Positions 437-64,000 of a stretch of 64,000 nt of DNA are shown one piece after another; position 1 is the first letter of the stretch; every line of letters starts with the position of its first letter. The stretch is from contig MU831912.1 of assembly GCA_029204225.1 (NCBI GenBank), positions 33,113-97,112 on the forward strand, in the 5' to 3' direction. The notes under the pieces were generated by a model. That model searched no databases and was not told the origin of the DNA. It worked only from the letters and a program-made list of their open reading frames with translations. Both the position numbers and the translations under genes were made by a program. The stretch comes from Diphasiastrum complanatum (Eukaryota > Streptophyta > Lycopodiopsida > Lycopodiales > Lycopodiaceae).

Positions 437-828
437 TTGTAACTGTCTTAAAAGAAAAGAAAAGAAACACTAAGGAGATTTTAAGCTGGTTTTCTTACAG
501 TTCTGATGCTGCATGTAAGTTTCATACTCACAAATTGAGTCAAACTGAGCTGATTTATATTGCAGTTGGAATTGATTCAAATTTTGATTGGATGAGTCAA
601 GTCGCACCACTGCAAATCGATTTGAAAAGCTCCTTGTAATATTTTCAACAAAATGTGGGGAAAAAGAAAATTTGGAATTTTCTTTTCTAAAATTTGTAAT
701 GTAAATTGGTTGACTCATTCTCATGATTTGAAGGGTTGGCATTTCAGATGCACAAACAGTTTGACTTGGAAGAGTTTGGCAAGAATCAGTGGTGGATAAT
801 CATGGTAGCTTTTTTGATTTGTTTGCAG
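437..828 (+). other. Presumed LON1 intron
   Basis: No coding stretch is recognisable here. The segment ends in a good 3' splice site (TTTGTTTGCAG, ending at 828) directly before the conserved Lon protease exon, so it reads as intron. A weaker acceptor-like TTTCTTACAG is followed by only a few bases before a GTAAGT and is not a convincing exon. Confidence 0.5.
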
Positions 829-1330
829 GAATCTGTTTTGTCCCCAGAAGAGGTACACAAGTCAAAGATTGTCATTGATGAAACTAATCTTCATGAGTAT
901 GTTGGCAACCCCATTTTTCAGAACGATCGCATTTATGATGAGACCCCTATAGGAGTTGTGATGGGTCTAGCTTGGACTGCTATGGGTGGTTCCACTTTGT
1001 ATATAGAGACAAGTCTTATTGAGCAAGGTGAAGGAAAGGGTGCACTTCAGTTGACGGGACAGCTTGGCGACGTCATGAAGGAAAGTGCCACAATTGCACA
1101 TACACTCGCTCGAGCCATACTTCGTGAGAAGGATCCCAATAATACGTTCTTCTTCAACTCAAGACTACACCTGCATGTTCCTGCAGGTGCTACTCCAAAA
1201 GATGGGCCTAGTGCAGGTTGCACAATGATCACTTCTTTGCTGTCTTTGGCTATGAACAAGCCTGTAAAAAAAGATGTTGCAATGACTGGGGAGGTGACTC
1301 TAACTGGACGTATTCTCCCAATTGGCGGGG
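829..1330 (+). CDS. LON1: LON1 penultimate exon: Lon protease domain with catalytic Ser
   Basis: ATP-dependent Lon (La) protease, serine-lysine peptidase domain. The exon opens in phase 0 after a TTTGCAG acceptor and ends at GG|GTAAAT. It reads [20 protein letters not shown], then a GVVMGLAWT motif, the [10 protein letters not shown] helix, [14 protein letters not shown] with the nucleophilic serine (codon 1210-1212), and [14 protein letters not shown]. These words match plant mitochondrial Lon1 better than peroxisomal Lon2. The AAA+ and N-terminal domains must be encoded upstream of the window. The product degrades damaged matrix proteins in mitochondria and possibly plastids. No disabling change is seen. 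The reading frame runs on past 1330 to 1461, but the splice site and family alignment show that tail is intron. Confidence 0.9.
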
Positions 1331-1470
1331 TAAATTGGTCTGACCCTTCTTTGATAAATGAATTTGTTTACATCATAGAATGTGGGCTGCAGAATAATTG
1401 GGGTTGGATTATCAGTTTTACTATAGATGAATGTGTTGTGATGGCCTTTTTGTGCTGGTAAATTGATCAG

Positions 1471-11122: not shown

Positions 11123-11770
11123 CTACAAGGTATCAGGGTCATACAGCTTGTAGGTGTTGTCAGATGAAGTGTATCCAATAAAGATTGTCTTGAGATCTTG
11201 GAAGTTAAATTTCTTCCTTGTCTCCTTCCGGATTCGCACGTAGGCGATGCATCCGAATACTCGAAGGTTCTTCAATAAAGGCTTTGAGCCTGTCCACACC
11301 TCATGGGGTATTTTGCCTGAGAGAGTCGTGGTCGAACATTTGTTCTGGATGTAAGCTGCAATGGAGACAGCTTCAGCCCATAAGCTCTTTGGCAAAGATG
11401 AGTGTGCTAGCATACATTTAGCTGACTCGACCAGGGTACGATTCTTCATCTCGGCTAAGCCATTAGACTGAGGCGAATAAGGAGTGATAAACTGTTGTTC
11501 AATGCCTTGGCTCTGAACTTAGTAGAGATGTATTCTCCACCATTATCTGACATCAAGGATTTGATTGTCTTACCAATCTCTTTCTCTGCACGCTCCTTGA
11601 AGATTTTGAAGCAATTGAATGCTTCTGATTTTTTTCTTAATAAAATAAACCATAATCCTTCTGAAAAATTCATCAATAAAAGTTATAAAATACTTTGCAT
11701 CCTTTTGTGAAGGATTCTGCATTGGGCCATAGATATCTATATATACAACATCTAATAATCCTCTAGGCAA
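11123..11770 (-). mobile_element. Copia element A: integrase core and C-terminal part
   Basis: Minus strand. The first catalytic Asp region reads DVVYIDIYGPMQ (around 11740), the second SLMSDNGGEYISTKF (around 11530), and then come TLVESAKCMLAHSSLPKSLW, EVWTGSKPLLKNLRVFGCIA and FIGYTSSDNTYKLYDPDT (11123-11449), the usual linker to RT. Two frame changes separate the pieces. The region around the catalytic Glu is partly lost between the frames. Non-functional. Confidence 0.85.
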
Positions 11771-12440
11771 TATGTTGATGGCTTAATCTAAAAGGTTGCA
11801 TGGTCTGTTTACTGACTAGACAGTCTTGAAAAATAGGTAAATCAACTTTCTTGTCATGATAGTCGAGATCAAGAACAATAGATTGCTTAGACATGTGTTG
11901 TACAGAAGCATGATTCAAATGGCCAAGTCTATAATGCCAAAGTAAACTTTTATTTATCTGAACAGAAGTATTAAGTGCCTGACTAGAGGCAGAAAAGCAA
12001 TGAGTTAATCTATACAAGTATCCATGCCTCTTTCTGAGTTCTAGGATCTTGTTTGTCCTATCGACTACTTTACACTGACCAAATTCAAATTCTACTTTAT
12101 GTCCTAGATCTGTAATCATGCTGACAGAGAGCATATTTGTTGACAGATTTGGTACATGAAGGACATTCAAAAGTAGTTTACATTGATCATTGGCAAAGTT
12201 TAATCTCACTGTACCTTCACCTTTGATAGCTTGAATGTTATTATCACCAAGGTGAACATATTGTTTGGTACTGTAAGGTGTATAGGACTCGATACAGCCG
12301 ATATGGCTGGTCATATGCTGTGTGGCACCGGAATCAAGAAACCAGAAGTTGTCATTGGATCCTTCTTGATGGCTTGTTATGAAGGCGTCATGATCCGATT
12401 CTTGAATAGGCTGTGGAGCTTCTGCAGCTGCATTTGCCAC
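11763..12440 (-). mobile_element. Copia element A: protease and pre-integrase domain
   Basis: An open minus-strand frame of 225 codons. It carries the aspartic protease site WFLDSGATQHMTSH (near residues 33-46), the VLHVPNLSTNMLSVSMI motif typical of copia protease ends, and the pre-integrase WHYRLGHLNHASVQHMSK. The zinc-knuckle remnant (YCKHSNHEIQDYR) lies just upstream at about 12480-12540 in another frame. It follows gag and precedes integrase in the normal copia order. Confidence 0.9.
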
Positions 12441-12697
12441 TTGATTTGACTGCTCTTTGCTGTTATTCTTTGCAGTATACGATAGTCTTGGATCTCATGG
12501 TTGGAATGCTTGCAGTATCTACTAAACAGTTTCTTCTTTGTCGGCTGATTCGACTGTTCTTGACGATGTGTCAGTTTCTGATCTTTCTTTGATGATCTCG
12601 GGCCTTTTTTCTTTTGCTTAGTCCAGCCTTTGTTGGTGTATAAGACGTGAGAGTCAACAGTCGAGGAACTGGAGGCTTCGTTCTTATGAGAGTCTTC

Positions 12698-32599: not shown

Positions 32600-33965
32600 C
32601 TCTTATTTGTAAATTTAGGTCCATAGTGATGATTAACATTTCTTGTTTCTTTTCATGTTGTTTGTATTTTCTAGTTCCTAAGCTGTTCTTGCTAGTAAAC
32701 ATTGGGTCTACCCAAGAGAATATGAAATTCAATTTGTATCTAAACAAACTTTGGCTTGCTATAAATTGGTGGAAGTATCGTGAAGAGGGGACATGTACGG
32801 GTTTGGATGCATTATAAATATTGGAATACTTGAAAATAGGTGAACCAATTATACGGTACAACCTAAAAGACAATGCTCTATTGATGAGTCAACTTTGAAT
32901 ACGATAACCTTTTATCACAAGCCTGAATACGTCATGAATATTGAGAAGGTGATGGCAGGATGAACCAAGTATATGGTACATTACAAAGCTCTATGGAAGA
33001 GTCTACGTTGAATAGTAGTAGCTTGGACTCTAGGCTTGCTCGTGGATTAGATAATTTTAAGAATGGACGTTGATTAAAGTATTCTTAGGGGTAGTAGAAA
33101 GATAACATATCTAACATGCCTTACGATTCCAAACACCTATTGGCTTTTGGACTAATACATTTGTTGCAAGTCCAAATCTTGGCTGTCACAATTTTCCCGT
33201 ACTATTATGGTTCCATTGTCGGCGATTTGAGTCTTGGGTTTTCAAGTTTCCAATTATCTTGCAACTTGACTTTGGTGTTGGACCATACCACAATGGGCCA
33301 GTTTATGCACAATAGGTTCTATGCGCGGTAGGTCTACGATGACATGGCAGGTGACATGGCATGCACACACAAGGTGGAGGAAGTGGGAGACAAGTAGTAG
33401 GTGTATGAATAGTTGTGCAATCGTGCACAAAAAGAAAACCCTTGACAACACTTTTAGGGGAATTGCAAATCTAATAATGTCTTGTAATTGAGAAAATAAT
33501 TTTATGAGCAGATGTAGAAGGAAATGCACATCACATAATTGTATAGACAATAAGAGATTAATGAAAGTCTTATCACATCATGTAGAGCATCACATACAAG
33601 ATAGATAGAGGGGCCAAGATTCCCTCCACCTTCTTGATGGATTCCATCTTATTAAGGACTTCCAAGTGTTACACATTAGATTATATCCATCTTATTACTT
33701 ATCATTTGGGCATGGGCATTGTGATTCTATTAATTGGAGTATCTTTTTTGTTGTTGTATTACTAGATATATGTATGCCATGATGGTATGGTGAAATAATG
33801 TGCCATGTAAAATTTTAATTTACATGTAAGTAGCCTATTAGCTCATCGTTGGGTGCTAAGGATTTCCCAATACTGATTGCTTGTGTAGTTACTAGCATTG
33901 ACTACATAGAGTAAGTAAATGATTCTACTGCTTGCTTCATTAACAACTTCTAGGTAGAAGAGTGA
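32600..33965. other. Intron sequence without recognised content
   Basis: AT-rich, no retroelement protein motif on either strand. Open frames here (32532-32873 minus, 33116-33331 plus, 33254-33550 minus) have hydrophobic, random-looking composition. Confidence 0.4.
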
Positions 33966-33969
33966 TAGG

Positions 33970-34922
33970 CTGTACCCATAAAAATTTTAATATTTAAGAT
34001 ACGCATAAGTTCAGTCCAAAACTTAGAAGTAAAATGAGTATCACAGTCTGTAAGAATAGAACCAGTGAGACCATGTAATTGAAAAATGTCAGATAAAAAG
34101 ATACGAGCGTAGTGCAGTAATGGTAGCACGAATAGGAATGAAATGTGCCTGTTTAGAGAAACGAAACATGACGTGGGAAGCCTAAAATAAAATCCATAGA
34201 ACTATCATTCCATTGGCGATGTGGAATCGGCCAATGCTGAAGAAGATCAGAAGGCTTAGTCTGTGAATACTTATTACGAGCACAAAACATACACTACTGT
34301 ATATGAGCTAGTAATTCAAGTTTCATGTGTGGCCAATAAAAGTAAGGTTTCAAACGAGCAAAAGACTTCTGATAACCATAATGACCGCCAACACGAGAAT
34401 AATGAGCATCATGTAATAAACGGGATCGAACATCGGGTAGAGAATAAACATGGTGGTGAATGGACGATGGAGATTGGGCCGTATGATAAATAGAACTAAA
34501 AATGGGACAAGTCTCATATGCAGCTGGAAGTAAGTCAAGCCAATCAGGGAAAATGGTAGTAAGAGTAGTAAGAAGGGTTGGTAACCGAGACAAACCATCG
34601 GCACCAACGTTACTCCTACCAGGGCGATAATGTAACTGATAATGGAAACGCTGTAAAAGCTGCAGCCAACGAAACTGTCGATCACTAAGCTGCTTTTGAG
34701 TGTCAAGACATCGTAAAGACTGACTGATCTGTGTATAAATTAAAAGCTACAGGCTGAAGATAATGGCCCCACTTAGTAAGGGCATGAATGATAGCTAAGA
34801 GTTCCTTTTCATGAGTAGAATAACGCGTCTCATAGGAACGTAAACGACGGGGTTCGTAAGCAATAACATTAGAATCTTGACGTAAAAGGGCCCCAACACC
34901 GACAACACTGGCATCATTTTCA
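33970..34922 (-). mobile_element. Gypsy element 2: RNase H, zinc finger and integrase start
   Basis: On the minus strand after the junction at about 34922: DASVVGVGALLRQDSNVIAY, YSTHEKELLAIIHALTKWGH, HYRPGRSNVGADGLSRLPTL (end of RNase H), then the integrase HHCC finger (HDAHYSRVGGHYGYQKSFAR, CVMFCARNK-like), the first Asp (SSMDFILGFP) and the second (ILTDCDTHFTSKFWTELMRI). Several stops are present. It is a second RNase H in direct continuation of the first element's RNase H. Confidence 0.82.
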
Positions 34923-35775
34923 AATTCATGAAGTATCTTACGACGAAGATCCTTCACATCTGGCACGAAAACTCTTCCATTTCTCAATAACATACCATCC
35001 TTCACGGTGTATGTTAGATATGTACTGGTGTGTGCCTCTACGGAAGCGACAACCTCGACTGTCTCTTCCATTTGGTCGACTACCTTGCGCGCATTAGGCC
35101 ACACACGCTGACAATGCGGGTCCTTTTCTTGAGCCTTCTTAATCTCCTCCATGAGACCACTGTCAACCACAATAAAGCTCATCTGATGCAGTATACGAGA
35201 TAGTGCATCAGCGACCACGTTTTCCTTCCCTCTTCGGAAGCAAATTTCCAAGTGAAATTCCTGCATCAGCTCGGCCCACCGAGCTTGGCGGCCTTTCAAA
35301 TCTGGCTGAGTGCAAAAATACTTCAAAGTATGATGATCTGTGTCTCGGCGCCATATAAATAATGTCTCCACACCTTGAGCGCATGTATAATCGCATACAG
35401 CTCTTGCTCATGTGTAGGATATCTCTGTTGAGCTGGTGTCAACTTCTTACTCTCAAAGGCTACTGGTCTACCCTCTTGGCGCAACACTGCACCTACGGCA
35501 ATGCCACTTGCATCCGTCTCTAGGTCAAAAAGTTTCTGGGTATCCACAATCTTGAGGACTGGAGCCGTGGCCACAGACTCCTTCAAGTTCTCAAAACGTT
35601 GCTGAGCTTCAGCATCCCATCGAACCACAGTGTTGTTTTTTCGTAACTGGTCCGTTTGAGGAGCAGCTATCCAGGAATAATCCCTAACAAACCGCCGGTA
35701 GAACTTACAAAAGCCTAAGAAAGGTTGTAATTGGCGTATATCGGCAGGCCTCGGCCACTTCTTAACCACAGCCAC
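34923..35775 (-). mobile_element. Gypsy element 1: RNase H and start of the zinc finger
   Basis: Two overlapping minus-strand frames. 35323-35775 reads [40 protein letters not shown] and KKLTPAQQRYPTHEQELYAI. The second frame, from 35371, reads TLKYFCTQPDLKGRQARWAE and KENVVADALSRILHQM, followed by a long linker and VFVPDVKDLRRKILHEF, where a zinc finger should begin. There the sequence passes directly into the RNase H of another element. One frameshift near 35350 separates the two frames. Confidence 0.85.
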
Positions 35776-37166
35776 CTTGGCTGGGTCAACCGAAATACCC
35801 TCAGCTGTAACTTGCCCAATAGGATCTTGAGATGAATCTCATGCTCCTCGACCGCTTTACTAAAAACCAATATATCGTCAATAAAATTGACGACAAACTT
35901 ACCCATATAGTCTCGCAAGACATCGTTCATGATCATCAACGTGGCTGGTGCATCAGTTAACCCAAATGGCATAACCAAAAACTCATAATGACCGAAACGG
36001 GTTCGGAAGGCCGTCTTCTGGACGTCTTCATCTCGAATCCGTATTTGATAGTATCCACTTTTGAGATCTATCTTACTGAAAATGGTTGCACCTTGCAACG
36101 CATCCAGTAGAACATCAATCCTGGGCATCGGATACTTGTGCTTTACAGTGATCTTATTCAATCCCCTGTAATCTACACACATATGGAAACTACCATCTTC
36201 TTTCTTAACAAGTAAAATAGGAGAGGCGAAAGGTGAATAACTAGGACGGATGTACCCCAGCTTGAGATACTTCTTCAACATCTTTCTGACTTCCTCTTCC
36301 TCTTTTAGGCTCATCCTATAAGGAGGCCTACATATCGGACTTGCCCCTGGAATGAGCTCAATACGATGATCAACGTTCCGACTAGGCGACAATCCCTCTG
36401 GCATATTACTAATTAGCACGTGTTTAAACTGAGTGCGGATGGACTTCTCCAACTCACTTGCTGGGTCACATCTAGGCTGTAATGAAAATGCATGTGCACT
36501 AGGGGATGCAAAAGTAAATGAAGCTTCTTGTGGTTTATTAGTGAGTGTGCTTATCTGATTATTGTCAACATAAGAATCAAAACTAGAATCAACATTCACA
36601 TAACACAACCACAAATACTGAATCTCCATTTTCTTTATTTGCATACAGGTAATAAGAGGACCCTCAACAGATGGTCTCTTCCCCTTTAAGACATGAGACA
36701 TACCCTCATGCCCAAACTTATACACATGTGACTTAAAGTCTATAGTGGGCTGCTTACTTGCATGCCACCACTTACCAAGTACAATATCAAACTTAGCTAG
36801 TTTAGTAACTTCAAAATCTAACTTCTCGGTATACGTTTGAATAGACAAAGACGCCCGAGAGATTCTTTCATCCCAAACCTCTGTTCCCTTACCATCTGGC
36901 ATCTCAACAGTATACTGGTAATTAGATGGAACAACAGCTAAGCGAAACTTCCTCACCACGCGAGAATTGACAATATTATGCGAGGAACCGGTGTCAAATA
37001 AGACGAGCACGTCATGACCTTCCAGCTTCCCCCTCATGCGTATCAGTTCACTATCTAGAAACTGATAAGCTTCACACGCCTTGATGGACAAAGAACAAAT
37101 TGGTGCCCTCCTCTCTATCCCTCTTCTATAAGAAATGTGTGATGAGAGTCTGACTGGAAACATCAT
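35776..37166 (-). mobile_element. Gypsy element 1: protease and reverse transcriptase
   Basis: A nearly open minus-strand frame of 483 codons (35715-37166). The protease has [20 protein letters not shown] has [78 protein letters not shown] and [13 protein letters not shown] (catalytic Asp pair at about 35872-35881). Family members usually read FxxVYLDDILVYS, so the YLDD is FIDD here. A frameshift near 35800 separates it from RNase H. It is the best-preserved pol in the window. Confidence 0.9.
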
Positions 37167-37179
37167 CTGCCTCCGAAGC

Positions 37180-47839: not shown

Positions 47840-50137
47840 TTGTATTAATTTTTGTTGGGTGCCCAGGGGCACATAAGACAGAATAAATAAGCACATATCT
47901 TTGTAGGTTCACTGTCCATGTCGGACAACATAAAAATCACTAGTCTAAGTGGAAAAGACAATATAGAACTCTCTCTAGCTAGTTACAGACACATCCAACA
48001 TAGAGCTATAAAAAGCATATAAGAGCAAATATACAAGAGCTTAACCTCCAACTTTGAAGAGGGTACAAGTGCAAGAGCTTAACCCTGCTCTGCTGAGGAA
48101 AATAAAAAGAAAAGTAAAATATCAATCTCGAAAAAACGTCTGATACTCATAGAAGCTGTGATTTGTGGTCAAGGAGCTCTGGTAGCTCTGGAGGCGCGTG
48201 TAGATCTGGCAAGAGGTGGTGGCTGAGCACGCTGGGCCTTTCGCACTCACCAGTATGACTGCCTCATCATCTGATAGGTCATCGCGCTGCGCTTCTGAAA
48301 GAAGCTAGTAATGAGATGCTGGCCAGAATTAGTAATACTCTCCGATGGTAGCAAAGAGGCTCTCAACATAAGCATCTCTCGTAGTAAAAGGCCGACACAT
48401 CTAGGATCCTGATACTCCAAAAAGGTACTGAGGGTAATAGGGGTGTCCTGATATAAACAATGATATCGGCCACGTATCTCATAGTATGTAGGGCATATGA
48501 AGATAAAATGGAACTCATCCTCCACTACACCCAATGTGCATACCTGGCACTACCAACGATGCATAGCCCTTCCGTAACCGGGAAAATGCCGCATATCGCA
48601 TGCTGAAAGTGGGACCAGAAAATACCACGCCTAGGTATGTGTAGGAGTCAACTACCTCAAGTGGATGCTCCTCCCATAGAAGCACCTATCGCATCATGAA
48701 GGATCGGGAGGTGTTAAACACCATAACTTTGGTTTTAGCCTTCTTCACTAATAATCCCCACTGAGTACAAAAAGAGTGAAGCGTATCAAGATGCCGCTGC
48801 AGACCTTCCCTCGTCCTCGAAAGCAAAACCACATCATCAACATATAATAGGATAGCGATAATGAGGTCACCCAATGTGCATCCCTCACCTCCCTCTATCT
48901 GTATAACCTGCTCAAGCTCATCTATATATAAACCAAAGAATGTAGGTGAGAGAGGACATCCCTGCTTAACCCCAATGGTACTCTCTATCTTTGGTGATAC
49001 AACTCCTGATACTCGGATCCGGCCAATAACTCTTCTGTACAATGCCACAACTGCCTGTATGATGTCCTCCTGGAAGCCACGGTCCCGAAGTCTCTGTATC
49101 AGTAAATGTCGAGGCACAGAGTCAAAGGCTTTGCGGAAATCCACAAAGCAGCAATATACACGCTCTCTCTTGGCCTTAGCCTCCTCAATGATGGATCTCA
49201 AGGTGAAAATATGATATGATGTAGTATATCTTGGTCTAAAACCTGCCTGACCTATGGCATGTAGTGCTCTGGTATCCATCTCTGTACTGATCTTTGATTG
49301 AAGAATAGAACCATAAACCTTGGCAAAGAGGTGGCTGATCATGATGGTACGATAGTTGTCGGCTTTCATGGGATCACCGCCTTTATGGATAGGATGAATA
49401 AGATTTGTGGACCAAGGGGAGGGGAAACCAGATGTGATAAGAGGAAAGAGAGGAAGGGTGAGAGGATGTCAGCACCCTGCTTCAAAAGTTCAGCTTCTAG
49501 ATCATCAATATCTTTGGCCTTATGTAGGTTTAGTCGGTCGATAACCTCTTCTACTATGGCCGGGGAGAATATATCAGAAGTACGTGTGTAGGGGTGTTTG
49601 GGAAGTGGAGGAGTGTCAGGTATAGTGTACAACGATGTGGCATAGGTTACCCATGTGCTAAGATCTGTGATCTGGGGTGGAGGTGCTCATGGAAGGAATT
49701 TTTGCCAAAAGATCGCGACGAGGAGCTAAAGAGAAGGTCCATCATCTTCTTCCCCTGGCTGATTTCGTAAGTAATTTTCTTTTTTTCGGGTGGTTCTACG
49801 ATATACACGGGATAAGTCCTTTACCAGATGGGGAAGGTGGCATTGTGCATGAATCAAGTTCAGATGAAGTTGGTTACATTCGTGGTCATACCAGGGATTA
49901 TGTGGTCGACTATGTCGTAAGTGCTTGGGCCGTGGAGATGGAAAAGCAAGGGATGCAGCGGTATGCTAGGTCCGGACAAGAAAAAGAGAGTGGTCCATCA
50001 AAGTATCGGCGTAGGAGAAATGAGTCAGGAGGTCAGATAAGGCTTCCCTGTACATAGGAGTGTTTTGAGGATTATAGCGGTATACGGTGTTTTCGCCAGG
50101 ATTTAATGTACTAGTCCATGGGGTGTGAAGAAGGCCA

Positions 50138-53953: not shown

Positions 53954-54166
53954 GTAAAATTTCTTTGGTCACTCTCATACATGTGTCTCTAAGATTGATT
54001 TTAAGTGTGAACAATCGCTTTGACTTTATAAACCCAACACTCTAGATTGATGGAGGCACGTCTCTCAATTTCACAAGTTGCACTACTTAATTTTGAAGGC
54101 TTTTCCTGTATTTATGCGCAACATGTATGAAATCGACATCTTTGACCTTGAATGCTCTCTAGTCAG

Positions 54167-54320
54167 GTTTGAAGTTCCTCGCATGCTATTCTCACTTCAA
54201 CAACTTGATGAGCTTCAAATCTATGTGATTCAAAAGAAGGATCCAGACTTACACAAATGGTGGGCACATTATTGTGAAGCAATTGACTTAGTACCAAAAG
54301 CAATCGACTATTACAAACTT
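54167..54320 (+). CDS. IFT140: IFT140 exon: DTHRFEVPRM region
   Basis: 154 bp, acceptor CTAGTCAG, donor CTT|GTAAGC, leaving phase 0. It encodes FEVPRMLFSLQQLDELQIYV, IQKKDPDLHKWWAHYCEAID and LVPKAIDYYKL. FEVPRML and the xxLWxWWAQYxES...ALxYYxxA pattern are hallmarks of IFT140. The intron before it is 213 bp. Confidence 0.93.
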
Positions 54321-54708
54321 GTAAGCTTTGTTGCATGGTGGTATGAAAGATAGACCCAAGACACGACAATAAGAATGTCCATATTTGCGTAAGATGTTTT
54401 AGATTATTGATTTTTTTGGGTGCAATTGTTTGTTGGCTATAAGTTGCAATTTAACCCCTTCAATTTTTTGAATCTCATAGCTGATACATGAAATGGCTAG
54501 AAGATCTTAGATTTCAAAGTTACGATTTTGGATCACTCTTCCTAAAATTGGAAGCTTTGGAGGTTAAGATTCTATCACTTAACAAATAAGACTATCCTAG
54601 ATTTCTTCTCATGGTAATATTACATCTATTTTTGCATTCTTTTATGATGCAATGTCATGGCATTTGAGGGATGGAGATAATAGTTTTGCAACTGCAAATA
54701 GAATTCAT

Positions 54709-55077
54709 TTAGCAAACTCTGCTCTCCTTTAACCAACCAATACACTCCTGGTTACTGTCCATACCAAAAAGATGAACTCTGGCCTTACGCGCAACAAGGA
54801 TTGAAGTGCATGTACCCACATGAAGGTCCAAGGCAACGCCACCTTCGGGGCAAAAAGCAGAGAGCAAAAACATCATGAAATATTCGCTCTTTTCTACACT
54901 ACCTCTCATAGCCTTGTTATATCTTGTATCTTTGGACCACTCTGAGTGTGGTAGATAGTGCGTCCAGAGATCGTTGTCCACATCCAACAAGCCAATATCA
55001 AAATTTTTTGCACGTTCACGATTGAAAAATGGTATGGACCCTTTTCTCGAAATAAGGTAGACATCCATAAAATTCAT
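54709..55077 (-). pseudogene. DNA methyltransferase-like gene, last exon (SAM-binding motif)
   Basis: 123 codons from the acceptor TTGCATGCAG to TAA at 54711-54709. The end reads SEYFMMFLLSAFCPEGGVAL, DLHVGTCTSILVARKARVHL and FGMDSNQECIGWLKE. This follows the C-terminal pattern of bacterial-type DNA N4/N6 methylases: P-x-E-L-M-x-x-L...PGDxVLDPFxGSGTTxxAAxxxGRxxxGIExxxE. The motif DPFxGSGTT has become DLHVGTCTS, losing the Phe and one Gly, so SAM binding is doubtful. It is transcribed against IFT140 inside its intron. I infer a decayed or divergent methylase. Confidence 0.6.
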
Positions 55078-55191
55078 CTGCATGCAATGACAACACCATA
55101 TCAAATCAACCAATAGCCAAACTGCAACATAATCTCAACATAGTTACTTTATAACAAGAAAACATTCTGAATTGCATAACATGCAAGTCAT

Positions 55192-55311
55192 GACATATAC
55201 AACCATGAATACAATTTGATATATACTCAAAACAGAAAACACAACTTACAAGATACATACAACCATGAATACAATTTGAAACTATACTCAAAACATAAAA
55301 CACAACTTACA
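55192..55311. repeat. 60-bp tandem duplication spanning a splice donor
   Basis: Two units (55192-55250 and 55252-55311) share AACCATGAATACAATTTGA and CACAACTTACA. On the minus strand each carries TGTAAGTTGTG, so the methylase gene's donor at 55310 has a second copy at 55249 inside the intron. Confidence 0.85.
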
Positions 55312-55850
55312 TTCAGGCCGTCTTGTCCTCTGCCAAATTTTCCTATCACCCTCAAAACAACACACCTCATTGTCAAGTTGCGTCGGCCGAACTGAATCTC
55401 AACTTGCAGTCTATGTGTAGGGGGGCTGATTAGGATGACCCAACCACTGTCGTCCTGGACAACCATGCATATGTCTAGGCTGGATTCCAACGTCTCATCG
55501 GACCACTTGTTCCAAGTGGACTCAACACCAACAACACCATCAATTGTATATCCTAAGGGCAAATCAACAATGATGGTGTCGGCATTGTAAGTGGTGCTCT
55601 TACCTTTCCTAATCCTCCTGGAAGAATTGTTGCTTTCCATAAAGCGTTTCATTACTTGATATTCTTGCAGGTTGTCACCTTGAGTAAGACCCTCTCGAAT
55701 ATTATTTGCATCTCCGACAATCATCTCAACTGACGACTTCAACCTCGTCTCTACACTCATCATGTCCACTTTCACATATTCATATTCGTCCCGTCTTCTT
55801 TTAGCAGGTGTGAAAGCCATGGTATCCTTTAGAGTCACAAAAATCACCAA
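55311..55850 (-). pseudogene. DNA methyltransferase-like gene, exon with putative catalytic motif
   Basis: 180 codons from acceptor ACATAG (55853-55851) to donor AAT|GTAAGT at 55310, phase 0 throughout. It starts with a basic DTMAFTPAKRRRDEYEYV segment. Residues 90-104 read ADTIIVDLPLGYTID, in the place of methylase motif IV (DPPY/DPPYG) after a beta strand, followed by WNKWSDETLESSLDICM and DSGWVILISPP, as in the D-PPYG...WD.WSDEEL...GWVII pattern. PPY has become LPL. The order motif IV then motif I is that of beta-class enzymes. The joined frame with the last exon is open. Confidence 0.6.
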
Positions 55851-55931
55851 CTATGTATGGCTTAAAATAATCTTATACAACAAGTAATTGCCTATTTTAA
55901 AAAAATCATAATAGATTTAAAAAAACCTTGA

Positions 55932-56320
55932 ACATCTTAGGATCATCTCTTGCGTTAGTGGAACAAGATTGACTTTTCTTTTGCCCTTCTTCTCCACTAC
56001 CACTTGAGGCTTCTCGGGGGCAAAAGTAAGCTTGGACTTCGTTGTTATCTGAGTGGCTACTGTATCATCTTTATCCTCTACAACAAGGTGACCCTTCTCA
56101 TTCAGATGGTACTGTGCCAGACGGAGGATATTCTCCCTCTTTGAAGTCTATCCACCAAGGACAATACTTGACCTCCCTCTCACTCAAGCCAGCTTTTCTA
56201 CCAATTTGTAGAATACTCACTTCTTTTTTTATGGTGAATTGGTTCCACATATCCATGATCAAAGGCATTTCCTCTATATCATGTTTTGCTTTAAGCTGGA
56301 AGAAATATCTGTTTAAACTC
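55932..56320 (-). pseudogene. DNA methyltransferase-like gene, central exon, frameshifted
   Basis: After an acceptor GTTGCAG it reads SLNRYFFQLKAKHDIEEMPL, DMWNQFTIKKEVSILQIGRK and LSEREVKYCPWWIDFKEG. Near 56115 the reading must shift one base to continue as ILRLAQYHLNEKGHLVVEDK and TTKSKLTFAPEKPQVVVEKK with a basic GKRKVNLVPL end. The donor near 55926 (GTTTTT) is poor. The function of this part is unknown; it lies N-terminal to the methylase core. Confidence 0.5.
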
Positions 56321-56398
56321 CTGCAACATTTTAGACCCAAAATCACAACAAACTAAAGAACATTTATTTTTTGTTTTCTAAGAAACATCAGGTTTTAC

Positions 56399-56505
56399 CT
56401 CCACGTCACTCTCTTCGCTGCTAGCTTTGCCTCTTCCTTTGCCTCGGTGGATATGATTGGTTCCATAATCCGAAGAACAAAAGAAGTGGGATTGACGTGA
56501 CGCAC
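56399..56505 (-). pseudogene. DNA methyltransferase-like gene, exon cut by a copia insertion
   Basis: Reads VRHVNPTSFVLRIMEPIIST and EAKEEAKLAAKRVTW, then AG|GTAAAA. The phase-2 junction AG|G across the 78-bp intron (56398-56321) joins correctly to SLNRYFF. The upstream end is lost where copia sequence begins, at about 56510-56530. Confidence 0.5.
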
Positions 56506-56519
56506 AAGCACATTCGGTC

Positions 56520-58090
56520 ATAGCGCTATCCGTGAAGAGATCAATCCTACCTCACATTCGATCATGCAAGACTTCCAAGAGTGCTTGGGAAGTACTTGCC
56601 AAGATGTTCCAAGTGAAGAATACGGCGAAAGTGCTTTATCTACGTAATCAACTCTCAACATTGAAGATGCAAGAGGGTGATACGCTTTCAAATCACTTAA
56701 TGAAGATCAAGGATCTTCGTGAAGAGCTTCTTAGCATTGACGAAATTGTCGAGAACTCTCAATTTGTTTCAATTACTCTTAATTCACTTCCTCATTCCTA
56801 TCTTCCATTTGTGTCTACTTTAAGCATATCTCTTAGGGGACAACAAATCTCCTTTGAAGAGCTTGTTGGCTTACTTCTCCAAGAAGAGCAAACAAGGATT
56901 AATTTTGGTGAACAAGAAGATCAAGCCTTCTTCACCAAAGGAAAAGGCAAGGGCAAGTGGAAGGGTAAGCCTTCTTCTTCCAAGGATCAAAAATCCAAGG
57001 AAGGCCAAGATCAAGGAGACCCAAAGAGATCACTTTTAATTGTTGCTTCGGGAACATTGCGAGGAGGTTTGTTTCTGTTGGATATTTATGAACCGAAAGC
57101 TTTGACATCCTTTGGTCTCGTTGCTACTTTTTCACATGCATTGGAGTTGGCTAAACTATGGCATGCGAGGTAGGGGCACCTCAATTTTGGAAGTTTGAAT
57201 ATGTTGAAGAAATTCAACATGTTGGAAGGCATTCCAAATATGGAGCATCCCGAAGGACATGTATGCGAAGGATGCATACTTGGTAAGTTTCAACGGAAGC
57301 CTTTTCCTATTAATGGGACTATCAAAGTTGGTGATAAGTTTGCCTTAATTCATAGTGATGTATGTGGTCCAATGAGGACCGAATCCATTGGTAAATGCAA
57401 GTACTTCGTTACTTTTATTGATGATTTTTCAAGGTTTACATGGATCTTTCCTATGAAGGCAAAATCTGAAGTTTTTCAACGCTTCAAAGATTTTCTAGCT
57501 ATGATAGAAAATCAATTCGGGCATACTTTGAAGATACTACGTACCGACCGAGGAGGGGAATACATTAAAAGTACGTTCGGCACGTTTCTTCAAAGCAAAG
57601 GCATTCTACATCAAATGACTACACCTTACACACCGCAACAAAATGGTGTTGTCGAGAGAAAAAATTCACACAATCATGGAGATGGCTCGTTGCATGCTTA
57701 AGGCAAAGGGCGTTCCCCACAAGTTTTGGGCTGAAGCGGTTATTACGGCGGCATACATTAGTAATCGGTGTCCGACTAAAGCCTTGAAGATTTTGACTCC
57801 TTATGAAGTTTGGTATGATTTGGTATCACCATCTAATGTTGAAGAGGAGGGACTGCCATCATCCTCTAATGGACAGCCCACTGGTTCTTCAAGCGAACAG
57901 CCCATAATTCATCAAGAGGAGAGATTTATGAAGAGGAACGACCTGTTGACAACTTTGGACAACATAGTCCAATTTCAGAGCACTTGGACAACAAAGTGTT
58001 GACAGTTCAGATCACTTTGGACAGCAAAGCGTTGATCAAAGTAAGGCTATTGGACAGCCTAAACCAGTCCCTAAATGGCTGTTGCAGACT
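56520..58090 (+). mobile_element. Ty1-copia fragment inside the methylase-like gene
   Basis: Plus strand. Gag reads HIRSCKTSKSAWEVLAKMFQ, YLRNQLSTLKMQEGDTLSNH and LVGLLLQEEQTRI, with a Lys/Gly-rich end. It then jumps, without zinc knuckle or protease, to pre-integrase (RGGLFLLDIYEPKA, LWHAR, GHLNFGSLNMLKK, HVCEGCILGKFQRKPF) and an almost complete integrase core: LIHSDVCGPMRTESIGKCKY, LKILRTDRGGEYIKSTFGTF and PYTPQQNGVVERK (D, D and E). One frameshift follows the Glu. The frame ends in a Ser/Gln-rich linker before RT, which is absent. No LTRs are seen. Confidence 0.87.
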
Positions 58091-58094
58091 TTGC

Positions 58095-58479
58095 AGACTC
58101 CATATAATGAAAGTACAAAGGCACCTTTCTCCTCAAGATAGCCATCTTGCCTGAATGTGGCCCTTAGAACCCTTGTTTATGGACCAACTTGACGGACACT
58201 CTCATGAATGTAAATCCTGCATAAAGGAATAAATGGATGTGGTGTCCGTCTTACCACTCGAAGCCGCTTCATAGTAGATGATAGCATTTCCACATGAAAA
58301 GTTTTTGGAATGCTAGCAATCTCGTCATCTTGAGACCTACCCTTCTTCTTTTTTCCCTCATCCTGAATGTCATCCAAGGGCAAATCTTCCTGCAAGTCTT
58401 CTTGCAATCGACGGAACTCACCGTCCACCTCTTCTTCTTCATGTGTCTCTTCCACGACAATATCTTCGACGAATTCTTT
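58095..58479 (-). pseudogene. DNA methyltransferase-like gene, N-terminal exon
   Basis: Minus strand from acceptor TTCATGTAG (58482-58480): KEFVEDIVVEETHEEEEVDG, then DDIQDEGKKKKGRSQDDE, MKRLRVVRRTPHPFIPLCRI and YIHESVRQVGP, a TAA at 58179-58177, and in the same frame TRVLRATFRQDGYLEEKGAF. The acidic-basic start followed by a compact domain, strand and position suggest it is the 5' part of the gene that resumes at 56505 beyond the copia element. A further frame at 58560-58640 (YLRKWYGRLERDYKIES) may be the preceding exon. Confidence 0.45.
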
Positions 58480-59999
58480 CTACATGAACACGACAACACA
58501 TTTTTGAAATTAAGGAAGAACATCTCGCTACAAATGATTAGAGATAGAGTATAGTAGTCATTCTGTAATATGTCTCTACTTTCGATTTTGTAGTCTCTTT
58601 CAAGTCTGCCATACCACTTTCTCAAATATGGTATCATATTCTAACTGTGAAAATTAACATGAATTTTCTAATTGAGAACAGATTAGCATTGAAAATCTCC
58701 AAAACTAGATTCTCAAAGCACCTCTAGCTTTGTCGTCTATATGAAGCTCAACATTATAATAACTTTTTTTTGGAAACATAGTTAAACTCCTAAGGCACAT
58801 CTAGCTAGAAGCTCTATTAGAAGATCCACATTATAACAGCTTCTTGTTGAGTGGGTCCATGGGATCGACTTTTTTCTTGTGCTCAAACAACACTAGTTAT
58901 ATGTTTCTATTAGGCATGGTTTCATCCCTACCATAAACTTCAGCAAATTCATGTCCCTTAACAAGTCAGAAAAAAGCTTTCCATTTCCATCTGTGCTGCC
59001 ATAGAAAGTCTACCAACAGTCAAACGATCAAGGATCTTTACGGATGTATATTGCAAATGTGCACTCAAATCAAGCGCTAACACCTCTCTGGCTCGACATC
59101 AATCAAGCGAATCTACATCAAGATAACTTCAGCTTTTTTCATCGTTAAGTATTTGCAATTATCATGCTCTTGTGAATGTTGGATGCTTTCCTTTGATAGC
59201 TTGCTAATATTTAGAGTTCTTAAATGCAGAAGATCTGATTTTTAGATCATCTTGAGGTTGATAGAGGGATTGGATCAAGGATATAGACTTCCTCCACATA
59301 ATAACCAAGTTGGCTATTAATTAGGATCTCCTCATAGGTGAGGACACTGGACTCCTTAGGTAGATAGGTTTTCTAGATTTTGATGTAGATCAAGTGAACC
59401 AAAAGAGAAAATTCTCAAAAGATTGAAAAATTTGGCCAAAGATCAATACGAAAGGAAACAAGCTGGAAAAAAGATTTAGATTATTGTTAGACCTTCTTGT
59501 GTGTCTGCTTCTTCAAGAGTTGATTACATAATTGATGATGTGGCATGCAATCACTCTTGGGTGACCTTCCATCATACATTTCCTTTGCTCTTTGGAGTGA
59601 AGCCGTACTAAAATTTATACTCACCCTACTTAGATTATTCTTTTCTAGATCTATGACATTTGGATTAGCATTTAGCTTGCTGGATTTGGAATCTGAGTAA
59701 TGATTTTGGAGCATGTGAAATCTCGTTTCTTTGACATTCTGTGCTACAGTATGATGTAAATAGGCACATAAGCTGCTAAATTTTCACTTTTTACATTTTG
59801 CATGCTACGCTTTGTTATTCTGCTGTTGATTGGAAACAGCGTTCAATTTTGTTGCCAATGATTGCGGCTATTTTGGATATGTTGTAATGAATTTCTGCAC
59901 ATTAAAGGTAATTTTATTTTATAATTTTTTTCCGTGTGTGTGTTCCAGCAAGATAGTTTCATGAAATCATTCATCCATTTTACATGCTCTTGTGAACAG

Positions 60000-60116
60000 G
60001 CTGGCGACGTCAAATCACTTGTTAGAGTCTTTTGTTTTCTAGGTGAAACTGATGCTGCCGCTAAGGTTGTATCTGAATCAAAGGATGCCTCTGCAGCATT
60101 TTTGCTTGCTTGTCAG
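60000..60116 (+). CDS. IFT140: IFT140 exon: TPR-like repeat
   Basis: 39 codons, phase 0 at both ends; acceptor GTGAACAG, donor CAG|GTACAC. It encodes AGDVKSLVRVFCFLGETDAA and AKVVSESKDASAAFLLACQ, matching the family pattern ARDxFSLVRIxCFxGxxxKAAxIxxETxxxAAxYHLARQ. Intact. Confidence 0.92.
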
Positions 60117-60735
60117 GTACACATCACCGCTCTGCATTTTATGTGACAATGTGCTAAGTTGGAGATGAGGGCTAAAGTTGCTTTGCAGTAGGTTGTCAAG
60201 AATTGTGCAATCTTGAGCTTATGTGAAATAGTGGCATGTAGCAGAATTTTTTTGTTATGAAGCCACCTTGCAAATAGAGTTTGCAGTTGTCAAGTTTTTT
60301 GATATATGCTTTTCCCTCACAATATATGAAAGCTAAACTCTACAAAGAAATCGTGCATTGATGCAGGGTTAGGACAAGAACCTAATCTAGGTTTTCACCT
60401 AGAAGTTGTAGCTCAAATATAGCTCTATTCTGCTTGTAGCTCTTCGTATCATTAAGGCATGATAATAAGAGCTTATTTTTCCGCTCCCTCACAACTTTGT
60501 TCCAAACTTACTTTGTAAAACTTTCTTTAGTTCAGAAGGGTTATCATGATGTCAAAATGCGAAGTATTACTGAAGACATATTAATGCCTTTGTATTTTAC
60601 ACATTGATGTAGAAGAAGAAGCATGAAAATATGATAGAATTGGAGCTAAACTCCAAGTGTCCACCAAAACTTTCTATCTTGGTTCATATTTATTCAACTT
60701 TTCCAGGGATCTTTCACTAGCAAGGGTTCTGCCCT

Positions 60736-60835: not shown

Positions 60836-60961
60836 CTGGAGAAATCTGGAAACGTTCCAGAAGCCATTAATTTCTTCACAATGGCAGGAAGATACGACTA
60901 TGCAACTCAAGTTGCCATGAAGTACGGTGTTGACAATGAGCTATTATCCCTATCATTACAG
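60836..60961 (+). CDS. IFT140: IFT140 exon: TPR-like repeat
   Basis: 42 codons, phase 0 at both ends; acceptor TGTGTGTAG, donor CAG|GTGATT. It encodes LEKSGNVPEAINFFTMAGRY and DYATQVAMKYGVDNELLSLS, matching YExxxxVxxAVxFYTxAxxxxxAIRLCKExGLDxxLMxLAL. Intact. A decoy acceptor lies 71 bp upstream. Confidence 0.92.
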
Positions 60962-61787
60962 GTGATTTGCAGTATGTGGTCCAAAGAGTATACTACTCTG
61001 GCTACACCTTAGGAGCTCGTGAAATGATTTTTTAGAACTAGGAAGTCAATTTTTTATGACCAGCTCAGAACTAGTTTCTCTACTACTGCTTATACTTGAA
61101 ATTTTACTGCAAGGATGATCCAGGACAAATCCATGTCCGGATCCCAATTTCCTCTAGTTGAATCTTGACATTTCCACCACCAATTTTGCCTGCTAAGCTT
61201 GTTGTTGAGTGTTATGGATCTCTCTTAATTTCTCATTTTCAACCTTCCCACTTTTCAATCACTGTCATGGCATCAACAATGTTTTCTTTAGCTTGACTCA
61301 TTTAAAATCAAACAATTTTGGCTGTAAGAGCTTCCAACAAATTTTTATTAATTGGTTTTTCCTTTGCTAAATAAAAAAAATGATGATTTTTTCCTTTGTT
61401 GTAGTAGGCAATTGATCAATATAACATCATTTCTCTTTCGACACCAGCCACAGATCACAACTTCTATGGGTATCAGACGTTTTTTCCGAGATTGATATTT
61501 TATTCTGTCTTTTTACTTTCCTCAGCAGAGCAGGTAGTTAAGCTCTAGCACCTGTACCCTCTTCAGAGTTGGAGGTTAAGCTCTTTTATGTTTTTTATGA
61601 TTCTATGTTCGATAGGTCTTCTGACTAGCTAGAGAGCTTTCTATATTGTTCCTTCCACTTAGACTAGCGTTCTTTTATGTTATCCGACATGGACAGTGCT
61701 CGTACGTGATATGTACTTATTTCTTTTGTCTTATGTGCCCTTGGGCACCCAACAGACATTAATATAATTTCTTCTTCTTCTTCTTCT

Positions 61788-63190: not shown

Positions 63191-63303
63191 GGTGGGGACC
63201 TTGAAAAAGCAATCCATATTTGCTTTCAAGTCCAACTTTTTGATGCTTTACTAGCTATTGTTGAAAAGATCGATGAAGGTGCAAACTCATCCTTGCTTAC
63301 AAG
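63191..63303 (+). CDS. IFT140: IFT140 exon: TPR-like repeat (last in window)
   Basis: 113 bp, phase 0 to 2; acceptor TTAACATAG, donor ACAAG|GTTGGT. It encodes GGDLEKAIHICFQVQLFDAL and LAIVEKIDEGANSSLLT plus AG for Arg, matching AGxxxKALELAFxxxQFxALxLIAExLxxxxDPxLLxR. The preceding intron is 174 bp. The C-terminal third of IFT140 lies beyond the window. Confidence 0.9.
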
Positions 63304-64000
63304 GTTGGTAATCTTTGAAAAGGCAACTTGTTGATTTTTCAACTAGCATGTAATCTTAAGCATATTCAATCTAAGGGACGATTATATTGGCCATCAACAA
63401 TATTCCAATAAATATATAATTCTTATTAGTCCATTTGATATGGTTATTGTCTCTTTAATTGGAAAATGTTATGGACACATTCTGTAGATTTTAATATCAG
63501 TGAAGCATAGAAGATCATAAATGAGGATATAATGGCATTCCCCTACTAAGAAGGCTGAAGTACCACATAAATGATCTATGGTTATCATACAAGCAATAGC
63601 AACAAGTTTTTTCCCATGAAGAGCTTAAGCAATACCAAATCACTAAGTTGAAGTAAGAATGTCCTTAGGCCATATTTATATCCAATGGGAACCCTATACT
63701 AGAGGCTTCCAGACACTTAACCTCAGCTCATTCATGAATATGTTTTGGGAATTATTGTTTTTTTGTAACCGCCCTAGTGTTTGACTGGCCATGCTTGCAT
63801 GCTATTATAGGGCCATTTTCTATGTATAGTAAACTCTACAAACAATATAGTTATCATGCATGTATGGTGGGCGCACTACTACAAGTGTAGAACTTAGTTT
63901 TATTGCTTAGTACTTCATTATGAGTCTTTACCCAAAATAGATAGTAATAATAGCAATTAGCCTTTTGCCTTCAGCTTTAGCTTTTTGGCTTTTGGCTTTT
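63304..64000 (+). other. IFT140 intron running out of the window
   Basis: AT-rich, no further IFT140 exon (expected words around CxDFFxxxxQYExAVxLL) and no retroelement protein seen up to the window end. Confidence 0.6.

Follow-up and report, generated by a model that had tools for sequence, protein, structure and literature searches.

We analyzed a 64,000-nucleotide stretch of the Diphasiastrum complanatum genome (assembly GCA_029204225.1, contig MU831912.1, forward-strand positions 33,113 to 97,112; hereafter the window), in which one antisense gene for a DNA-methyltransferase-like protein had been predicted at positions 58640-54709, nested in an intron of IFT140. This feature is probably a decayed and interrupted member of a high-copy, dispersed gene family that spread at the DNA level as a mobile element, or inside one, with its protein aiding the spread. 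Family proteins appear to combine an N-terminal domain marked by the motif CWDGNHR, which is ParB/sulfiredoxin-like by motif only, with a C-terminal beta-class N6/N4 amino-methyltransferase domain, in which the S-adenosylmethionine (SAM)-binding half is conserved and the catalytic motif DPPY is replaced.

Decay of the window copy

Two minus-strand frames of the original prediction, 55850-55311 (P0001) and 55077-54712 (P0002), are real: the GT-AG gap between them (55310-55078) preserves the frame, and they stay open over 302 residues. The gap is an intron (GTAAGT..GCAG), and other copies carry a gap of similar length between both exons. A 63-bp tandem duplication (90%) was seen within this relic intron (window 55189-55311). 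The P0001 exon (55311-55850), which by itself has no Pfam match, holds the start of the methylase domain with an altered catalytic motif; profile alignment, in a half that is not significant alone, puts DLPL (55554-55565) at the place of DPPY (motif IV). The P0002 exon (54712-55077) carries methylase motifs X, I, and II and matches PF01555 with an E-value of 0.0014 and 19 bits, under the gathering score of 26.7; significance is reached at the family level. Motif I, the SAM-binding loop, reads DLHVGTCTS (54802-54828, placed by the row of the twin copy L002) and has lost the second glycine of the DLHVGVGTS found in most other copies. Homology to most compared copies ends at 54709-54717, and the donor GGTGAGAC and the last exons are absent; this donor and the sequence following it are present in three young copies.

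The remaining parts of the gene are relics on the same strand. The first coding exon (58177-58479), which begins the CWDGNHR-type N-terminal domain and shares 80% amino acid identity with copy L012, ends at an in-frame TAA (58179-58177), and homology runs on to ~58097. Read beyond the stop, it continues with DGYLEEKGAFVLSLYG, similar to DGYLEEKGVFVLSLQG in the L044 copy, and DNA of L034/L012 matches window 58097-58549, split in two pieces. The start of exon 5 (EEMPLIMDMWNQ..CPWWIDFKEGEYPPS) is found at 56098-56476, is conserved in other copies, and in the twin copy matches residues 499-566 of L031, one of two intact relatives described below. Comparison with relatives places the continuation of exon 5 at 55917-56147 in another frame, the reading frame shifting between 56352-56098 and 56147-55917. 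Homology to other copies is interrupted between 56476 and ~58097, and this span is filled by a plus-strand copia retrotransposon fragment (56477-58096; Retrotran_gag_2 5e-30, rve 1e-13), which was inserted in the gene and replaces its middle, with gag at 56496-57173 and integrase at 57174-57701. No long direct repeat, as expected of long terminal repeats, was found in 56301-58300. Compared with L031, the window copy lacks ~360 residues (about 137 to 499). The window copy is dead because of the in-frame stop, the ~360 residues replaced by the copia fragment, the frameshift, the damaged motif I, and the lost 3' end; given the copia fragment, the stop, and the change of frame, the view of 58640-54709 as one gene could not be confirmed. 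Taken alone, the two window exons gave predicted structures with a mean pLDDT (predicted local distance difference test) of 30 and 37.

Methylase ancestry of the C-terminal half

Descent from a bacterial-type N4/N6 methylase of beta order, as proposed in the original prediction, could be traced through the two relatives L031 and L032 in the same genome. They consist of seven exons without stops, all six introns being GT-AG, with an uncertain 3' end, and are 79% identical. Against PF01555, which the window copy alone matched below the cut-off, both proteins scored 36-40 bits, above 26.7 (spliced L031, E 5e-9). The C-terminal half of L031 matched PHROG_67 (1.5e-12) and, among structures, DpnA (4e-4) and CcrM (0.08); for P0002 alone, PDB and NCBIfam gave no significant match (CcrM 0.079). 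By tblastn, the 932-residue query retrieved 661 phage methylase records at E up to 1, and exon 6 retrieved 1,218. Profile-profile comparison with six phage methylases yielded an E-value of 4e-9, and the half with motifs X, I, and II scored 67.1, the best of 50 shuffled templates reaching 22.9. A chance methylase match was rejected on the PF01555 and PHROG_67 values of L031 together with this shuffle control. By these similarities, the comparisons demonstrate that the C-terminal half derives from a bacterial-type beta-class N6/N4 amino-methyltransferase.

Motifs were compared in 31 rows, comprising L031, L032, and 29 of the 30 copies from the P0001 search (the window copy, L001, omitted and its twin L002 included); some rows are near-identical pairs, and four of the 31 are unreadable at motif IV. 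Motif I of PF01555 has a form of the type D-x-F-x-G-x-G-(S/T)-T, and the family retains it as DPFVGCGST in L031/L032 and DLHVGVGTS in most copies. At motif IV, none of the 27 readable rows contains the PP of the catalytic (D/N/S)PP(Y/F/W), P occupies the third place in 26 and D the first in 25, and an aromatic residue stands at the fourth place in L024 only. Both active motifs are altered in the window copy, as had been noted; as read from these rows, the replacement of DPPY by D(L/F)Px is a trait of the whole family.

N-terminal CWDGNHR domain

All six rows compared, drawn from four lineages with pairwise dS (synonymous divergence) of ~2 or saturated, share PPP(L/A)(I/V)PLC...CWDGNHR, and CWDGNHR itself is invariant in all six. 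The domain resembles ParB/sulfiredoxin by eye and by the domain order in phage ParB-methylase fusions. A tblastn search with it in phages and plasmids gave best E-values of 0.7 and 4, and the resemblance was confirmed neither by this search nor by Pfam or hhalign. As ParB references, N15 and P1 were tried, N15 itself lacking a PF02195 match. Comparison of the whole family with the phage fusions reached E 1.7e-5; the alignment begins at L031 residue 316, so this value has no bearing on the N-terminal domain. In the own genome, the N-terminal exon gave 151 reported matches (1,146 first-look candidates, 150 scored). A subfamily with open N-terminal exons was also observed (L092/L093, on C3 and C5; 93% identical to each other), whose exons are 50-51% identical to L031 and 57% to L032, compared with 38-40% for the L044 copy.

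Copy number and dispersal

Copy number, an issue raised with the original prediction, proved to be high. Since 150 candidates were scored per search, genome counts are lower bounds. P0001 gave at least 153 reported matches (504 first-look candidates), with places on each of the contigs C1-C23, and P0002 at least 152 (482 first-look candidates). The family thereby shows the many dispersed copies characteristic of a transposable element. The window copy is 99.9% identical over 3,540 bases to its twin on C5 (C5:6924873), and the window contig (C394) may therefore be an alternative-haplotype or redundant contig. Among the listed matches, many small contigs mirror large ones. In copies with both exons, an intron-length gap separates the P0001 and P0002 matches; copies with introns retained are not retrocopies, and this explanation was rejected. 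Judged by these gaps, the family was dispersed with its introns kept.

Upstream of many gene copies lies a 124-bp near-perfect palindrome (L045:5614-5737; -56.3 kcal/mol, z -11); in the two copies where the distance was measured, it precedes the first protein match by ~450 bp. Fifteen loci, retrieved with the palindrome plus the adjoining 3' sequence as query, all carry the palindrome; a shared flank extends upstream past it in 11 of them, and a different shared flank is found in the other four. Some genome places match the palindrome part of the query only. Among ten copies compared on their 3' side, one tail is common to four and another to five, and one copy has diverged. Upstream frames of four copies are partly retroelement-like by eye; two of the four were checked and have no Pfam match.

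Selection on family members

Ratios of nonsynonymous to synonymous substitution (dN/dS) were calculated by the Nei-Gojobori method for copies of our choice (14 for the P0001 exon, nine for the P0002 exon); these are rough estimates, and saturation affects several dS. L031 and L032 differ by dN 0.10 and dS 0.67 over 927 codons (dN/dS 0.15), and by this measure the two intact relatives show purifying selection. For the P0001 exon, the window copy gave 0.13-0.20 against seven young copies (L003, L004, L007-L010, and L017), and 0.56 and 0.46 against its nearest relatives L006 and L012; the 21 pairs within the seven young copies ranged from 0.23 to 1.53. Six P0002 pairs of young copies (L009, L010, L013, and L017, of which L017 holds a frameshifted stretch) gave 0.71-1.41, and other finite between-subfamily values were mostly 0.1-0.3. 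The estimated ratios thus show that constraint is relaxed in one young subfamily. Against L031/L032, identity is 27-46% in most of the stretches where the copies match. The low dN/dS between repeated subfamilies suggests that selection acted in the amplifying lineages, beyond L031/L032. Constraint between amplifying lineages and relaxation after insertion are typical of mobile elements and are no proof of mobility.

A second repeated methylase-domain family

Searched with PF01555, the own genome yielded 1,605 first-look candidates, and all 150 scored exceeded the cut-off (38.9-60.8 bits). Four of these places were partly read (L088, N6_N4_Mtase C-terminal half at 619-1149; L089, at 715-1101; L090; L091), and all carry a DLFSGS(G/D)TT motif; L088 and L089 reach 48 and 50 bits against PF01555. 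The L088 protein found 2,995 first-look candidates in the own genome; the 150 that were scored all matched, with 73-100% identity. Among phages, it found 218 records with an E-value of 0.01 or lower. From the matches of this protein, a second repeated family with an N6_N4_Mtase C-terminal half is recognizable, which by candidate count is the more numerous one. The earlier remark that such methylases are no standard component of plant genomes holds as such; this genome, with its very many PF01555 matches, departs from it.

Genomic setting

The original prediction of antisense nesting in an IFT140 intron was borne out. Plus-strand open frames on either side cover consecutive parts of the IF140/IFT172 tetratricopeptide repeat (TPR) profile PF24762, with one TPR exon at 54051-54350 (E 4.4e-12, profile positions 142-195) and the next at 59925-60143 (E 5.7e-8, positions 194-235). 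The best PDB matches of the former are intraflagellar transport proteins, with named IFT140 structures at E 1.6e-6 and weaker. Further frames follow in order at 60836-61009 and 63191-63331 (19.1 and 20.5 bits, below the PF24762 cut-off of 26.8). A PF23385 profile search for IFT140 gave no signal, the controls being likewise silent. These profile matches put the methylase-like frames, in antisense orientation, inside an intron of an IFT140-type gene. Elsewhere, the window contains the C-terminal part of a Lon protease gene (727-1458, plus strand; Lon_C 8e-60) and, by eye, retroelement-like frames of gypsy, LINE (long interspersed nuclear element) and copia type on the minus strand (34706-37178, 48689-49468, and 11126-12697).

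Discussion

We favour, with somewhat better than even confidence, the reading of the window feature as a relic of a family that spread as, or inside, a mobile element. Its protein would have contributed to this, most likely as a methylase, non-catalytic or altered, that binds SAM and DNA, with binding of element ends or countering of silencing as candidate roles. The suggestion of a plant gene or mobile gene thus survives in the sense of a repeated, probably mobile gene, and not in that of a functional gene at this place. Several observations weigh against our reading. Taken by itself, the motif-IV half has a score of 17.7 (E 0.09), which two of 50 shuffles reach, and homology of the catalytic half therefore rests on collinearity with the significant half. 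The N-terminal domain has no Pfam match, including PF02195, at E up to 10, and in hhalign comparisons with ParB (E 0.25-0.38), a lower P-value was obtained with 21 of 60 shuffled templates. Copy counts are also inflated by redundant contigs, many between-subfamily dS are high or saturated, and the compared copies were chosen by us. The apparent 5' and 3' limits of the element shift between copies, and neither a target-site duplication nor a transposase was found at the copies. Finally, L031/L032 may belong to the normal host gene set, with the copies having been duplicated passively. Such a host family, carried along by segmental duplication or by capture in other elements and without a role of its protein in mobility, would explain why two intact, conserved seven-exon genes exist and why no transposase was recognized beside the fetched copies. 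We nevertheless rate it as rather unlikely, as the dN/dS of 0.13-0.20 between the window copy and the young subfamily, with the other values mostly at 0.1-0.3, implies selection in amplifying lineages and not in L031/L032 alone, to which the copies are mostly 27-46% identical in their matched stretches.

A quite improbable origin is a large virus or phage-like element with a methylase, whose DNA was endogenized and later amplified. The closest sequences found to the C-terminal half are phage methylases, and ParB + N6_N4 methylase fusions are enriched in phages according to the available part of a published survey (PMC12704722). The retained spliceosomal introns argue against this origin, as do three scans of viral contigs, which gave one ordinary phage methylase (L087) and, needing short exact peptides, reach close relatives only. 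Searches for relatives among genome contigs brought no result. There is next to no chance that a working methylase gene, for example for N4-methylcytosine (4mC) in sperm, resides at the IFT140 place. Its open exons with splice sites and its position in a cilium gene would suit such a gene, but the stop, the frameshift, the ~360 residues lost to the copia fragment, the missing 3' end, the second glycine lost from motif I, and a motif IV that lacks PP in all 27 readable rows of the family speak against it; a live gene at this place is ruled out by the window sequence itself. The link to sperm cilia or N4-cytosine methylation made in the original prediction is not supported either, the IFT140 place being only one among the many found across all of C1-C23; we infer that this insertion is one event among many without a special tie to cilia. 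A more far-reaching version of the mobile-element reading is that a new kind of element invaded the genome, its propagation driven or protected by a protein joining a ParB/sulfiredoxin-like domain to a repurposed amino-methyltransferase, and that, together with the second methylase-domain family, it comprises maybe thousands of copies; we regard this as tentative and on balance unlikely.

Mobile elements carrying 5-methylcytosine (5mC) DNA methyltransferases occur in some eukaryotes, and there, too, a methyltransferase gene is amplified in the genome; they use another methylase class, and the mobility of the repeat family is what we infer. The beta-class DNA methylases DpnA and CcrM resemble the family in the motif X-I-II half (DpnA E 4e-4, CcrM only 0.08), but the family differs from them by the replaced DPPY and a long additional N-terminal region. 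The phage ParB_N + N6_N4_Mtase fusions (for example L082 and L084; PMC12704722) have a C-terminal beta-order methylase, the same domain order as the family, and, as a further likeness, GGHQR in the N-terminal domain where the repeat family has DGNHR. However, L082 and L084 keep DPPY where it has D(L/F)Px, and match PF02195 (L082 over, L084 just under the cut-off), for which the family has no match; the N-terminal profile comparison between them is not significant. They also differ from the about 960 amino acids and six introns of L031/L032. Bdelloid N4CMT and the Marchantia sperm enzyme are likewise bacterial-type amino-methylases in eukaryotes, one of them in a plant (PMC8885841, PMC12344493, each in the part available). 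According to the former source, N4CMT keeps SPPY, the change to APPA abolishes activity, and the Marchantia 4mC enzyme has no extra N- or C-terminal domains (PMC8885841). On that account, the repeat family differs from both by its repetition and its extra domain, and from the bdelloid SPPY by its altered motif IV.

Our literature search found no account of a methylase-like repeat family, which does not prove that none has been published, and the available part of a paper that treats gene transfer in a fern genome makes no mention of one (PMC9477723). That methylase-like domains whose SAM-binding half is conserved recur at least hundreds of times in this genome is a surprising result. To our knowledge, bacterial-type amino-methylases in eukaryotes are rare acquisitions (Marchantia, bdelloids). 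The expansion seen here would be a new route for prokaryotic epigenetic enzymes to enter and spread in a eukaryote, and it raises the question of whether the protein binds SAM and element DNA, methylates, or counters silencing.

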